A DNA stretch of 64,000 nt from Thermoplasmatales archaeon BRNA1 (GTDB lineage Archaea; Thermoplasmatota; Thermoplasmata; Methanomassiliicoccales; Methanomethylophilaceae), in NCBI GenBank assembly GCA_000350305.1, contig CP002916.1, positions 558,001 to 622,000 of the forward strand, read 5' to 3'. Below the pieces are notes generated by a model that was not told the origin of the DNA, did not search any database, and worked only from the letters and a program-made list of their open reading frames with translations. Shown here piece by piece: positions 27,356-36,511 of this stretch. Within the stretch, counting starts at the first letter, position 1. Each line of letters opens with the position of its first letter. The translations under genes and the position numbers were made by a program.

Positions 27356-27952
27356 ATGTTCGGTCTCGGCGGCTCAAACGTCCCCAAGCAGGTCAAAGAA
27401 GCGAAGATGTCCAAGTGGTACGGTTCCCTCTCGAACCAGAACCAGGTCAAGCTCAAGCGCTATCTGGACTTCGCAGACACCAGGGACGAGGCCGCCTTCG
27501 TGGTATCTGTCTGCAAGGCAGCCATCGACGACCACAACTACAAGTTCGCCGTCGCGGTGTACGAGAGTGTCTCCGAGATCAGGTTCGACGCCGTCCAGAA
27601 ATACGACGTCAACGAGGCCGCCATCCTCGCCTACTTCAACACCGAGCAGTACGACGAGTGCATGCGGCTATGCGACCTCGGCCTGGAGATGCTTAGGGAC
27701 ACCAACGTCAGGAACCATGTCCTCGACGGCAAGGACGTCTTCCCCGAGGAGGTCAACTGCCGCAACTACAAGATCAACGTGATGGTCGGCGTCCAGAAGA
27801 GATACGATGAGTCCAACGGAGTCCTGGACCAGTACGTGGCCGACGGCCTAATCTCCGCGGAAGAGGCGGAGTACAGGAAGAACTCCATCAAGACCTACAG
27901 GCTTCAGAGGACCTTCGACGGGATCTTCTCCCAGGTTCCCAAGAATCAGTGA
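27356..27952 (+). CDS. Protein of unknown function with TPR-like helices
   Basis: 198 residues, acidic, mostly helical; paired helices such as EAAILAYFNTEQYDECMRLC suggest a TPR-like region around residues 75-115. No catalytic motif. TATA-like CTTTTATGC (27326-27334) is about 25 bases upstream of ATG 27356, so the transcript is probably leaderless. Convergent with the next gene with a 7-base overlap. Confidence 0.65.
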   Translation: MFGLGGSNVPKQVKEAKMSKWYGSLSNQNQVKLKRYLDFADTRDEAAFVVSVCKAAIDDHNYKFAVAVYESVSEIRFDAVQKYDVNEAAILAYFNTEQYDECMRLCDLGLEMLRDTNVRNHVLDGKDVFPEEVNCRNYKINVMVGVQKRYDESNGVLDQYVADGLISAEEAEYRKNSIKTYRLQRTFDGIFSQVPKNQ

Positions 27953-28290
27953 ATCAGGCTTCTCCAGGCGATCTGGGGGACCACGTCCACGGCGGGTTCC
28001 TCGTAGGGGTGCACCCTGTCGATGATCTTCAGGACGTTCTCCAGGTCCTTCTCCCTGCAGACGAACTTTATCCTAATCTCGTCGGCGACGGTGATCTCAC
28101 CGACCTTTCCGTCGAAGGGATCCGCTCCCTCCTCCGTCCTCCAAGTCCCTTTGCAGGGCATGATGCAGAAGGTCCTGCTGTAACCGGGATAGACGGGTTC
28201 CATGACCTTGTCGATGGCGTCCATGAGAGCATCGGAATGGGATGCTGGCACATTTACGGAAATTCCGTAGATCCTCTCAGTCCCTTCCAT
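27946..28290 (-). CDS. YqfO/NIF3-insert-like small domain protein
   Basis: 114 residues. The run from YSRTFCIMPCKGTWR to RVHPYEEPAVDVV matches the PII/CutA-like domain inserted in some NIF3 proteins and found alone as COG3323. Binding of a metal or small molecule is likely from the fold; role unknown. Its start overlaps the end of the PHP-domain gene by 14 bases, so the two are co-transcribed. Confidence 0.65.
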   Translation of the reverse strand: MEGTERIYGISVNVPASHSDALMDAIDKVMEPVYPGYSRTFCIMPCKGTWRTEEGADPFDGKVGEITVADEIRIKFVCREKDLENVLKIIDRVHPYEEPAVDVVPQIAWRSLIH

Positions 28291-29239
28291 GGTCGTCGAA
28301 CTCCTCGATCATCTTGTCGATGTCCGCCAGCCTGCGATCGATGTGTCTCATGGCCTTCCTGGCCTTGCGTTTGAGGAAGGTCACGGAGAGTATGGTGGCG
28401 AGCATGGATACCAGGGGGAAGCGGTAAGCGTAACCTCCGTACAGGCCGGTGGCGTTCTTTATCGAGGTGTTCGTGAGGACCTTCGTGACCAGCCTGCTTC
28501 CCTCGACGGGCTGCAGCTCTCCCCTCAGCGCCTTCCTCATAAGTTCCTGGCCCCCCTTGACCACCTCCATGCTCCAGTAGACCTGCATGATCTCCGGAGC
28601 GGGGACGCCGACGGGGACGGTCTTCCTGTGCAGGATGGCCTGCCTGAACTCCTCGGCGGTGGTGCCGGGGAACTCGGTCCAGTTGTAACCTGCGGTGTAG
28701 AGTGAATGCGCATCGCTCCCGGAGAGGGCGGCCCATCTGCCGGGGTGCCTGTCCATGACGCACTGCGCGAACTAGTTGGAGTATACGTCGGGGTGGCCGC
28801 CGTTGATGGTCTCGAACCCCTCGATGGGGAGTTCGAAGATCTTCTCCTGCAGGCCGTTGACGTGTACGGAGAAGGGATGGGGTGCGATCGCTATGCCGCC
28901 CTGCTCGTGGATGATGTCCACGGTCTCCTCGGGGGACAGCAGGCTCTTGGGGGTCTCGGTCAGCCACAGGCCGATGACCTCTCCCTGGTTGGTCATGACC
29001 TCGTCGCCGACGACGATCTCGATGTCGTCGAACTGTCTGGCGTATTTCTGGGCGATGAAGCCTCCCCTGGTGTCGTTGTGGTCGGTGATGCAGAGGACGT
29101 TCAGCCCCCTGCGCCTGGCGTCGTCCACCTGGACGGAGGGCTCGATGACGGATTCGGGAAAACGGAGGATGCCCAGGCTGTTGAAGCCGGAGTAATTGGT
29201 GTGGACGTGCGTGTCCGCCTTTCCCGTCATCCCATCCAT
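28277..29239 (-). CDS. PHP-domain phosphoesterase-like protein with an in-frame TAG (possible pyrrolysine)
   Basis: 320 residues if TAG codon 156 (28772-28774) is read through. Before it: DTHVHTNYSG (first metal motif), ITDHNDTRGG, IVVGDEV, APHPFSVH; after it, in the same frame: LSGSDAHSLYT, the last PHP metal motif, then a basic membrane-like tail (FPLVSMLATILSVTFL). Both halves are needed for the metal site and neither shows other decay. Methanomassiliicoccales use TAG for pyrrolysine, and no gene here was seen to end in TAG. A plain nonsense mutation is the alternative. TATA about 29290-29300. Confidence 0.6.
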
Positions 29240-29320: not shown

Positions 29321-31099
29321 TCATTCCTCGTCGGCGTAGTAGTACTCGCCCTTGGACTTCTGGGTCCTGTCCAGGTTGGAGTCCTCCTTGTTGATCCTGG
29401 GGCGGTGGGTGTCGGCATCCCTCCTGAAGGTGATGTCCACGCTCTTCAGGAACTTGTTCATGCCCTCCCTCATGAGGAACGGGCCCTCGGCGATACCGTG
29501 GTGTCCCGGATCCCCTCCGAACACCATCAGGGAGTCGGAGACCATGTCGATGAAGTAGATGTCGTGGTCGACGATGAGGGCCGACCTCCCGGTCTTCTCC
29601 ATCATCCCGGAGATGCACTTGGCGGCCTCCATCCTCTGGTTGGAGTCCAGGTACGCGGAGGGCTCGTCGAGCAGGTAGATGTCCGCGTCCTCCGCGAGGC
29701 ATCCCGCGATTGCGACCCTCTGAAGCTCTCCTCCGGAGAGGTTCTTCATAGGCTTGTCGAAGAGGAACTTGATTGCCAGGGGATTGATGACCTGGGTCTC
29801 GAAAAATCCCGAGGTCACGGTGTCGTAGTTCTTGGCATAGAGGTAGTCCTGCACGGTCCCCTCGTACTCCTGGGAGATGTACTGGGGCTTGTATGCGACC
29901 TTCATAACCCCGTTGACGCTCCCGGTGTCGGGCTTGATCTCGCCGGCGAGCATCTTGACGAAGGTGGTCTTTCCTGTGGCGTTCGGGCCGACGACCCCGA
30001 CGGACTCCCCGATCCTGACGGCGCCGGAGGACACGTCGAGTTTGAACTCGCCGAAGTCCTTGGATACGTTCTCGAAGTCGATGAGCTCGGGGGTGACCCA
30101 ATCCCCTTTCGGAGCGGATACCGCGAACTCGATGGGCTTGTCCCTGAACCTGATGTTCTCCTCCGGGAGGTATCCGGTCAGGTAGACGTTGATGGCGGTG
30201 CGGACCTGCCTCCCGAGGGTGAACACACCGTACGCCCCCTCGGATCCGTAGACCAGGTTGACGTTGTCCGCGAGATAGTCGAGGATGGCGAGGTCGTGCT
30301 CGATGACGACGACGAACTTGTCGTCGCTGGCGAGGGATTTGATGATGCGGGCCATCTTCACCCTCTGGTAGATGTCAAGGTAGGAGGTGGGCTCGTCGAA
30401 GAAGTAGATGTCGGCGTCCTTCATGCAGGTGGCCGCCATGGCGACCCTCTGCAGCTCTCCGCCGGAGAGCTTGGTCAGGTCCCTGTCGAGGATCTCGGTT
30501 AGGCCGAAGGTCCCGGCGGCCTCCTCGAGGGTCATGCGCTCCTGCACCTTGGAGAGCATGTCGCGGACCACCCCGTTGACCGCCTTGGGAATCTTGTCGA
30601 CATACTGGGGCTTGACGGCGGTCCTGATGCCCCCGCTGTAGACGTTTGAGAAGTACTCGTGGATGTCGGTACCCTTGAAGTGGGCGAGGACCTCCTCCTT
30701 GGAAGGGGGGTTCTCGTAGTTTCCGAGGTTGGGGATCACGAGACCGGAGAGGATGTTGATGGCGGTGGTCTTTCCGATTCCGTTGGGTCCGAGGATACCG
30801 GTGATCGCCCCCTTCTTGGGGACGGGCAGGCGGAACAGGCGGAAGGTGTTCTCGCCGTATTGGTGGACCATCTCCTCCTTGAGCTCGTCGGCGAGGCCGA
30901 TGAGCTTGATCGCCTTGAACGGACACTTGTTCACGCAGATGCCGCAACCCTGGCAGAGGGTCTCGGAGATGATGGGCTTGCCCCTCTCCCCGAACTCAAT
31001 GACGTTGACTCCTGTGCGGATAAGGGGGCAGAATTTCTCGCACTCCTTGTTGCACTTCTTGTTCTGGCACCTGTCGAACAGTACCGCCGCAATCCTCAT
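29321..31099 (-). CDS. Ribosome recycling factor ABCE1 (Rli1)
   Basis: Twin-ATPase that splits ribosomes after termination. 592 residues: N-terminal Fe-S domain (CQNKKCNKECEKFCP, then CQGCGICVNKCPF), first ABC domain (GPNGIGKTT, signature LSGGELQRVA), second ABC domain (GPNATGKTT, again LSGGELQRVA). ATG 31099 is used since the Fe-S domain starts there and a TATA (TTTATATGC, about 31120-31128) sits 25 bases upstream; open codons beyond are not family-like. Confidence 0.96.
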   Translation of the reverse strand: MRIAAVLFDRCQNKKCNKECEKFCPLIRTGVNVIEFGERGKPIISETLCQGCGICVNKCPFKAIKLIGLADELKEEMVHQYGENTFRLFRLPVPKKGAITGILGPNGIGKTTAINILSGLVIPNLGNYENPPSKEEVLAHFKGTDIHEYFSNVYSGGIRTAVKPQYVDKIPKAVNGVVRDMLSKVQERMTLEEAAGTFGLTEILDRDLTKLSGGELQRVAMAATCMKDADIYFFDEPTSYLDIYQRVKMARIIKSLASDDKFVVVIEHDLAILDYLADNVNLVYGSEGAYGVFTLGRQVRTAINVYLTGYLPEENIRFRDKPIEFAVSAPKGDWVTPELIDFENVSKDFGEFKLDVSSGAVRIGESVGVVGPNATGKTTFVKMLAGEIKPDTGSVNGVMKVAYKPQYISQEYEGTVQDYLYAKNYDTVTSGFFETQVINPLAIKFLFDKPMKNLSGGELQRVAIAGCLAEDADIYLLDEPSAYLDSNQRMEAAKCISGMMEKTGRSALIVDHDIYFIDMVSDSLMVFGGDPGHHGIAEGPFLMREGMNKFLKSVDITFRRDADTHRPRINKEDSNLDRTQKSKGEYYYADEE

Positions 31100-35280: not shown

Positions 35281-35858
35281 CGGACGGAGAGGAACCCTTC
35301 GCGGCATTCAGAAGGCTCGATCTCCGCATTGGCACGGTGGTGTCCGTGGAGGACCATCCCGACGCAGAGAAACTGTACATCCTCAAGGTGGACCTGGGCG
35401 AGGAGGAGCCCCGCACCGTGGTCACCAACATCAAGAGCTTCTACCCTCCGGAGAAGATGATGGGCAGGAAGCTCCTGCTCGTGGCCAACCTCAAGCCCGC
35501 CAACTTCCGCGGTGTCAAATCCTTCGGCATGCTCTGTGCCGCAGACGACATGGAGATGGGAGGGAACTCCCTGCTCCTGCTCGACCCCTCCGTCGACGTC
35601 CCCAACGGCACCGTCATGAACTGCGGGCTGGAGAACTCCCAGTCCAGGGTCGAGATGAAGCATATCGAGAAGGTCACCATGAAGGTCGCCAAACTCTCCG
35701 GCGGGAAGTTCATGGGCATGGACATAGAAGTGCCAGATGATGCACCCGAGCCCATCGTTGCGGTCATCGACGGCGACAAGGCCATCGCCCTCGGCGACGG
35801 GAACGGTTGTTTTATGACAGTCGACGGCGATATCAAGGACGGAGCACCCGCAATATGA
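35277..35858 (+). CDS. Stand-alone tRNA-binding (EMAP-type) domain protein, paralogue of the MetG C-terminus
   Basis: 193 residues aligning end to end with the last ~190 residues of metG: FRRLDLRIGTVVSVEDHPDA against FRMLDLRVGQVIRVEDHPNA, NCGLENSQS against NCGLENSSS, and the same ending (DGDIKDGA against DKEIKDGA). It overlaps metG by ATGA, so it is translated from the same mRNA. It may be a trans-acting tRNA-binding partner for MetG or another synthetase. Tandem duplication is the simplest origin. Confidence 0.85.
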   Translation: MTDGEEPFAAFRRLDLRIGTVVSVEDHPDAEKLYILKVDLGEEEPRTVVTNIKSFYPPEKMMGRKLLLVANLKPANFRGVKSFGMLCAADDMEMGGNSLLLLDPSVDVPNGTVMNCGLENSQSRVEMKHIEKVTMKVAKLSGGKFMGMDIEVPDDAPEPIVAVIDGDKAIALGDGNGCFMTVDGDIKDGAPAI

Positions 35859-36511
35859 TCGCAGACCTTCACGTCCACACCTGCTACTCCAAGGACGGCA
35901 AGTCGACCCCCCAGCAGGTCATCGACATGTGCATCGAGAAGGGGATCGGATGCGTAGCCATCACCGATCACAACAGCTTCCAGGCGTATTTCGACGTGAA
36001 GGACAACGGAAAGGTCATCGTGATCCCAGCGGAGGAGGTCTCCTCCAAGGAGGGGCACATAGTGGCCCTGGGAATCGACAGGGAGATCCCCCGCGGCCTG
36101 GGTATCCAGGAGACCATCGACGCCATCCACGAGGCGGGAGGGTACGCCTTCGCGGCCCATCCGTACAGGTGGTGGTCAGGTCTGGGGCCAAAGAACACCC
36201 TCGCCTACGATTTCGACGGTACCGAGGCCATGAACGCAAGGTCCATCCCCAGCGCCAACAGGAAGTCCATGAAGCTCGCCAAGAGGATCGGGAAGCCGAT
36301 CACCGCCGGCAGCGACGCACACTCCCCGCATCGCGTCGGATGGGGAAACGTCACCCTCCCCGACGGCCTCACCACATGGGAGGAGGTGGTGGCATCGATC
36401 ATGAGGAACGAGGCCACCGCACACAGTGCCAGCAGGCATTTCACCGAGACCCTGCGCTACGGTTTCAAGAGCATAGGGCAGTGGATTTTCCGCGGGTTCA
36501 GGAAGATGTGA
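35855..36511 (+). CDS. PHP-domain phosphoesterase-like protein
   Basis: 218 residues. Metal motifs are complete: ADLHVHTCYS, AITDHNSFQ, EEVSSKEGH, AHPYRWW, GSDAHSPHRVG. Family members hydrolyse phosphate esters or nucleic-acid ends; the substrate here is unknown. Start ATG 35855 overlaps the previous stop (ATGA). Comparison with the TAG-containing PHP gene at 28277 shows basic residues (ANRKS) near the TAG position. Confidence 0.85.
   Translation: MIADLHVHTCYSKDGKSTPQQVIDMCIEKGIGCVAITDHNSFQAYFDVKDNGKVIVIPAEEVSSKEGHIVALGIDREIPRGLGIQETIDAIHEAGGYAFAAHPYRWWSGLGPKNTLAYDFDGTEAMNARSIPSANRKSMKLAKRIGKPITAGSDAHSPHRVGWGNVTLPDGLTTWEEVVASIMRNEATAHSASRHFTETLRYGFKSIGQWIFRGFRKM

Follow-up and report, generated by a model that had tools for sequence, protein, structure and literature searches.

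The PHP gene and its in-frame TAG codon

We analysed a window of 64,000 nucleotides from the complete genome of Thermoplasmatales archaeon BRNA1 (genome G000), a methanogen of the gut with the capacity to produce pyrrolysine, the rare 22nd amino acid. It contains a gene encoding a predicted PHP-domain metal-dependent phosphoesterase, whose reading frame is interrupted once, by a TAG at codon 156 (table 1). This is the only TAG-interrupted gene among the 60 called in the window on the basis of codon usage. The gene call scored both sides of the TAG as coding (54.1 before and 46.5 after), in agreement with the first-pass annotation of the locus, which described the frame as clean on both sides. 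The same annotation stated that only the full product has all the PHP metal motifs. This is indeed the case: HVH (residues 11–13), DHN (53–55) and APHP (119–122) precede the TAG, and GSDAH (174–178) follows it. Termination at the TAG would leave a product of 155 residues without the last metal ligands (GSDAH). The gene lies between those encoding the ABCE1/RLI ATPase and a protein of 114 amino acids for which a Pfam search gave no match, and the order of the three genes is kept across the genus.

Table 1. Features of the PHP locus, with coordinates given as positions in the window.
Feature	Position	Strand	Remarks
PHP-domain metal-dependent phosphoesterase gene	28277..29239	minus	320 codons with TAG as pyrrolysine; stop TGA
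TAG within the frame at codon 156, interpreted as pyrrolysine	28772..28774	minus	28774-28772 in reading direction
Metal motif DTHVH, residues 9-13	29201..29215	minus	from the sequence; D9, H11 and H13 invariant
Metal motif ITDHN, residues 51-55	29075..29089	minus	
Metal motif APHP, residues 119-122	28874..28885	minus	
Metal motif GSDAH, residues 174-178	28706..28720	minus	encoded only past the TAG
Codon 160 (TGC, Cys)	28760..28762	minus	one helix turn past the TAG; Cys limited to the three TAG carriers
ABCE1/RLI ATPase gene	29321..31099	minus	upstream neighbour, same strand as the PHP gene; order kept in related genomes with spanning contigs
114-aa gene	27946..28290	minus	downstream neighbour; overlaps the PHP gene by 14 bases; adjoins the PHP gene in related genomes covering that end

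The protein scores above the cut-off of the Pfam profile PHP_C (25.7 bits for a cut-off of 21.3) and below that of the profile PHP (21.4 bits for a cut-off of 26.4). It matches none of the methylamine methyltransferase profiles (MtmB, MtbB or MttB) in Pfam or NCBIfam. The AlphaFold model of the full-length protein, built on 9 sequences, was poor (pLDDT 46) and was left out. We used instead a trimmed model of residues 1–210 (pLDDT 81, pTM 0.84), which shows the PHP barrel fold. A VIA fold search with this model retrieved PHP-family phosphoesterases: BVU_3505 (3e38, Z 20.7), TM0559 (2anu, Z 20.1), RNase AM (7ug9, Z 17.5; also 9etk) and CV1693 (2yb1, Z 16.5). These proteins have the same fold and the same HxH, DHN, APHP and GSDAH metal motifs, at 18–27% identity. 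The BRNA1 protein differs from them by a C-terminal extension with a hydrophobic stretch and by a pyrrolysine codon, present in the PHP protein of three species. Residues D9, H11, H13, D53, H54, E80, H121, D176 and H178 are invariant in all nine aligned orthologues. PHP homologues are found in 139 of the 147 genomes of the order, even if a few of these are matches to a paralogue only, and searches of plasmid and phage collections returned nothing close. The gene is an ordinary, vertically inherited predicted metal-dependent phosphoesterase with a C-terminal extension.

Pyrrolysine machinery and the use of TAG in the genome

The genes pylT, pylS, pylB, pylC and pylD, proposed in the first-pass annotation as a check on the reading of TAG as pyrrolysine, are all present in the same complete genome. 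The profile scores of pylC (339 bits), pylS (262) and pylD (192) exceed their curated cut-offs, and pylB (427 bits) also exceeds its cut-off. The tRNA-Pyl gene pylT was read by eye immediately ahead of pylS (L044 9643-9572, minus strand), and its anticodon is CTA; ARAGORN did not list it, and the stability computed for its fold is unremarkable. A search for the N-terminal domain of PylS gave no match, as expected because PylS is shortened in this order (PMC3941956). The genome also encodes two mtmB genes, each with one TAG.

We then quantified the use of TAG in a sample of 262 kb of G000, made of the window and L044-L053. None of its 248 called genes ends with TAG: 233 end with TGA and 15 with TAA. 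Judging by this sample, TAG in the BRNA1 genome seems to serve almost exclusively as a sense codon. Recent work has reportedly uncovered archaea in which every TAG is read as pyrrolysine, with proteomics support. The lack of TAG terminators in the sample, the pyl genes and the two TAG-bearing mtmB genes together point to pyrrolysine at codon 156 of the PHP gene.

Other genes with in-frame TAG codons were also noted. A GNAT-family acetyltransferase of G000 (G000:C1:438679-439107; L049 18679-19110) has one at codon 96, where four relatives have Leu or Tyr, meaning that this TAG is private to G000. A hypothetical ORF (G000:C1:134644-135447; L046 14644-15450) has one at codon 99; its coding score past the TAG is weak, and one relative, from G039 at 45% identity, has no stop. 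Two further candidates were rejected: L052:851-1576 looks like an antisense shadow frame, and L055:156-2207 looks like one over MetRS.

The TAG is shared by three species at the same codon

We searched the PHP orthologues for the TAG and found it only in G000, G034 and G035, at the identical aligned codon, between 'YSN' and 'FA'. These carriers are three species of the genus with separate assemblies, those of G000 and G034 consisting of a single contig. The alignment of orthologues, another check proposed in the first-pass annotation, thus shows a TAG conserved in three species and varied sense codons elsewhere. That all close relatives would have a sense codon, named there as grounds for dismissal, is contradicted by G034 and G035. 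One genome lacking the PHP gene, G039 (91% complete), was rejected as an informative absence: it also lacks ABCE1, probably owing to an assembly gap at this place.

Shared codon and pyl genes in the same genome both support the proposal that this TAG is read as pyrrolysine. Pyrrolysine insertion at codon 156 is by far the best reading, argued here from the pyl genes and from the conservation of the codon. Selection also acts past the TAG. Between G034 and G035 (dS about 0.18), dN/dS is 0.05 past the TAG and 0.08 before it, and this purifying selection implies that the downstream half is translated and selected in the carriers. The alternatives of a sequencing error and of gene decay, for which the TAG itself is the sole argument, are refuted by the test of selection and by the presence of the codon in three assemblies; the intact frame and the conserved gene order also speak against them, and we give them almost no credence.

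The TAG might also separate two proteins, with translation stopping there and restarting at a nearby ATG (28756), since an ORF of 159 amino acids begins with this codon 15 bases past the TAG. However, in most non-carriers this ATG simply encodes Met162, and in G034 and G035 it is replaced by TCC (Ser), so that it has not been maintained as a start codon. Inspection by eye showed no clear ribosome-binding site before it, and neither half has a full metal site. Production of two separate proteins is therefore extremely improbable.

Outside the carriers, position 156 varies widely. The column ranks 4 out of 296 for variability, with Met (20), Ala (13), Arg (10), Lys (6) and TAG (3), and also His, Ser, Pro, Leu, Thr, Asn, Phe, Trp, Val and Tyr. 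The first-pass annotation held that the site tolerates a lysine-like residue, from the presence of basic residues near this position in the second PHP protein encoded in the window. In that protein, 'SAN-R-KS' does align, by eye, with 'YSN-O-FA', which confirms a basic residue there, but the tolerance extends to many residues and is not limited to those resembling lysine.

Pyrrolysine is probably tolerated rather than catalytic

Since few columns vary as much as that of codon 156, pyrrolysine is probably tolerated at this site and not catalytic. Our preferred reading, to which we give a probability of about 0.72, is that pyrrolysine is inserted at residue 156, that the full-length enzyme is made and that pyrrolysine is tolerated rather than catalytic. 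The tRNA-Pyl (CUA anticodon), charged by PylS, would insert pyrrolysine at residue 156, and the ribosome would then complete the PHP phosphoesterase of 320 residues, with every metal ligand included. Residue 156 is predicted to lie near the start of the helix that follows the 'ETINGG' strand, where the family is especially variable. Given an efficient and probably constitutive pyrrolysine system, TAG mutations at such tolerant sites would be nearly harmless, which would allow the TAG to persist. The enzyme may now depend on the supply of pyrrolysine without using it in catalysis.

Such dependence might itself be regulatory. If scarce pyrrolysine led to a stop at residue 155, phosphoesterase activity would track the supply of methylamine or pyrrolysine, and it follows from the position of GSDAH that a working enzyme needs read-through. 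Yet the lack of TAG terminators in the 262-kb sample indicates constant and efficient decoding, and most relatives do without such a switch. We regard a regulatory role of the TAG as very unlikely.

Carriers are not a clade and share Cys160

The preferred reading is weakened in one part, that pyrrolysine is only tolerated, by the distribution of the carriers and by a Cys that they share. G000 is an early branch in a tree built from 10 syntenic proteins, and G034 and G035 group with G038. Forcing the carriers into one clade was rejected with the 10 genes (AU test, p = 0.0002) and with the PHP gene alone (p = 0.041). As the carriers are not one clade, the history of the TAG involves either two gains at a single codon or one gain followed by three or more losses. 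Gene exchange between carriers around the TAG was rejected as an explanation: beside the TAG, few pairs have a nucleotide identity as low as that of G000 and G034. The recurrence at codon 156 looks unusual because the TAG of the GNAT gene, the other comparable read-through gene of G000, is private.

The carriers have a second residue in common. Position 160 is a Cys in all three and in none of the 68 other orthologues. Only at columns 156 and 160 do both carrier lineages have a state in common that is absent in every other sequence; for comparison, lineage pairs have 0.31 such private shared columns on average. Both residues are in the same predicted helix of the trimmed model (152–164), one turn apart. 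Another residue common to the carriers, R302, is also present in other sequences. The pairing of TAG and Cys160 could be due to chance, to the space that a long side chain needs or to a chemical pairing of thiol with imine, and we take this link in two lineages as a lead, not a result.

The lack of a single carrier clade and Cys160 keep open a functional role for pyrrolysine. Its electrophilic ring may have been selected to act with Cys160 near the rim of the active site, by reversible thiol addition, as a staple or as a packing pair. The private columns, their proximity in one helix, the separate lineages and the lack of signs of local gene exchange all favour selection for function. Against it, no more than two independent events can be counted with certainty, and the link with Cys was spotted after the fact. 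Moreover, codon 156 is hypervariable in those relatives whose enzyme has no pyrrolysine, and the smaller side chain at 160 may do no more than accommodate a long neighbour. On balance, we find a selected function unlikely. The stronger proposal that pyrrolysine was recruited at least twice to the same PHP position together with Cys, giving the protein a property beyond the reach of the 20 standard residues, is somewhat more doubtful still; if true, it would mean functional pyrrolysine outside methyl transfer.

Relation to known pyrrolysine proteins

In the methylamine methyltransferases MtmB, MtbB and MttB, pyrrolysine is catalytic. The PHP gene resembles them in a TAG probably decoded as pyrrolysine, as in the single TAG of both mtmB copies of BRNA1, and differs in that pyrrolysine at position 156 is dispensable in most orthologues. 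It also resembles the predicted non-methyltransferase pyrrolysine proteins of Methanomassiliicoccales, which likewise have a single in-frame TAG where relatives have a sense codon, in the same order, with the same pyl genes and very few TAG terminators. For 'Ca. Methanomethylophilus alvus', sixteen such proteins were predicted, including Cas1 and MtxX (PMC4153887); for ISO4-H5, the published count is 46 genes bearing in-frame amber codons (PMC5011839). Borrel and colleagues argued for alvus that, under efficient decoding of pyrrolysine, a new in-frame amber codon is a stable mutation (PMC4153887), and the same argument gives the simplest explanation of the TAG in the PHP gene.

The novelty suggested by the first-pass annotation is thus partial. 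PHP proteins are absent from the published alvus list (PMC4153887) and from the ISO4-H5 genes named in the text (PMC5011839), and our literature search found no paper joining 'pyrrolysine' with 'PHP domain'. However, non-methyltransferase pyrrolysine proteins had already been predicted by dozens in the order (PMC4153887, PMC5011839). The PHP gene extends this known pattern to a new protein family, the idea itself being already published. What sets it apart from the earlier predictions, and goes beyond the routine, is a codon common to two separate, non-sister lineages and paired with a Cys.

The gene offers a clean test for a role of pyrrolysine outside the methylamine methyltransferases: the fold is well known, the codon is shared by species that are not sisters, relatives with an ordinary residue provide natural controls, and the Cys co-occurs. 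It also indicates that a conserved gene beside ABCE1 can become dependent on the supply of pyrrolysine, and that TAG-bearing enzymes of this kind would be split or cut short by standard annotation.

The second PHP protein of the window (35855-36511) provides a further candidate. Its orthologue in species G044 (L075; G044:C53, 5822-6475) has an in-frame TAG at codon 18 and aligns over its full length, on both sides of the TAG, with 72% identity, which makes it a candidate for pyrrolysine in a second PHP gene.
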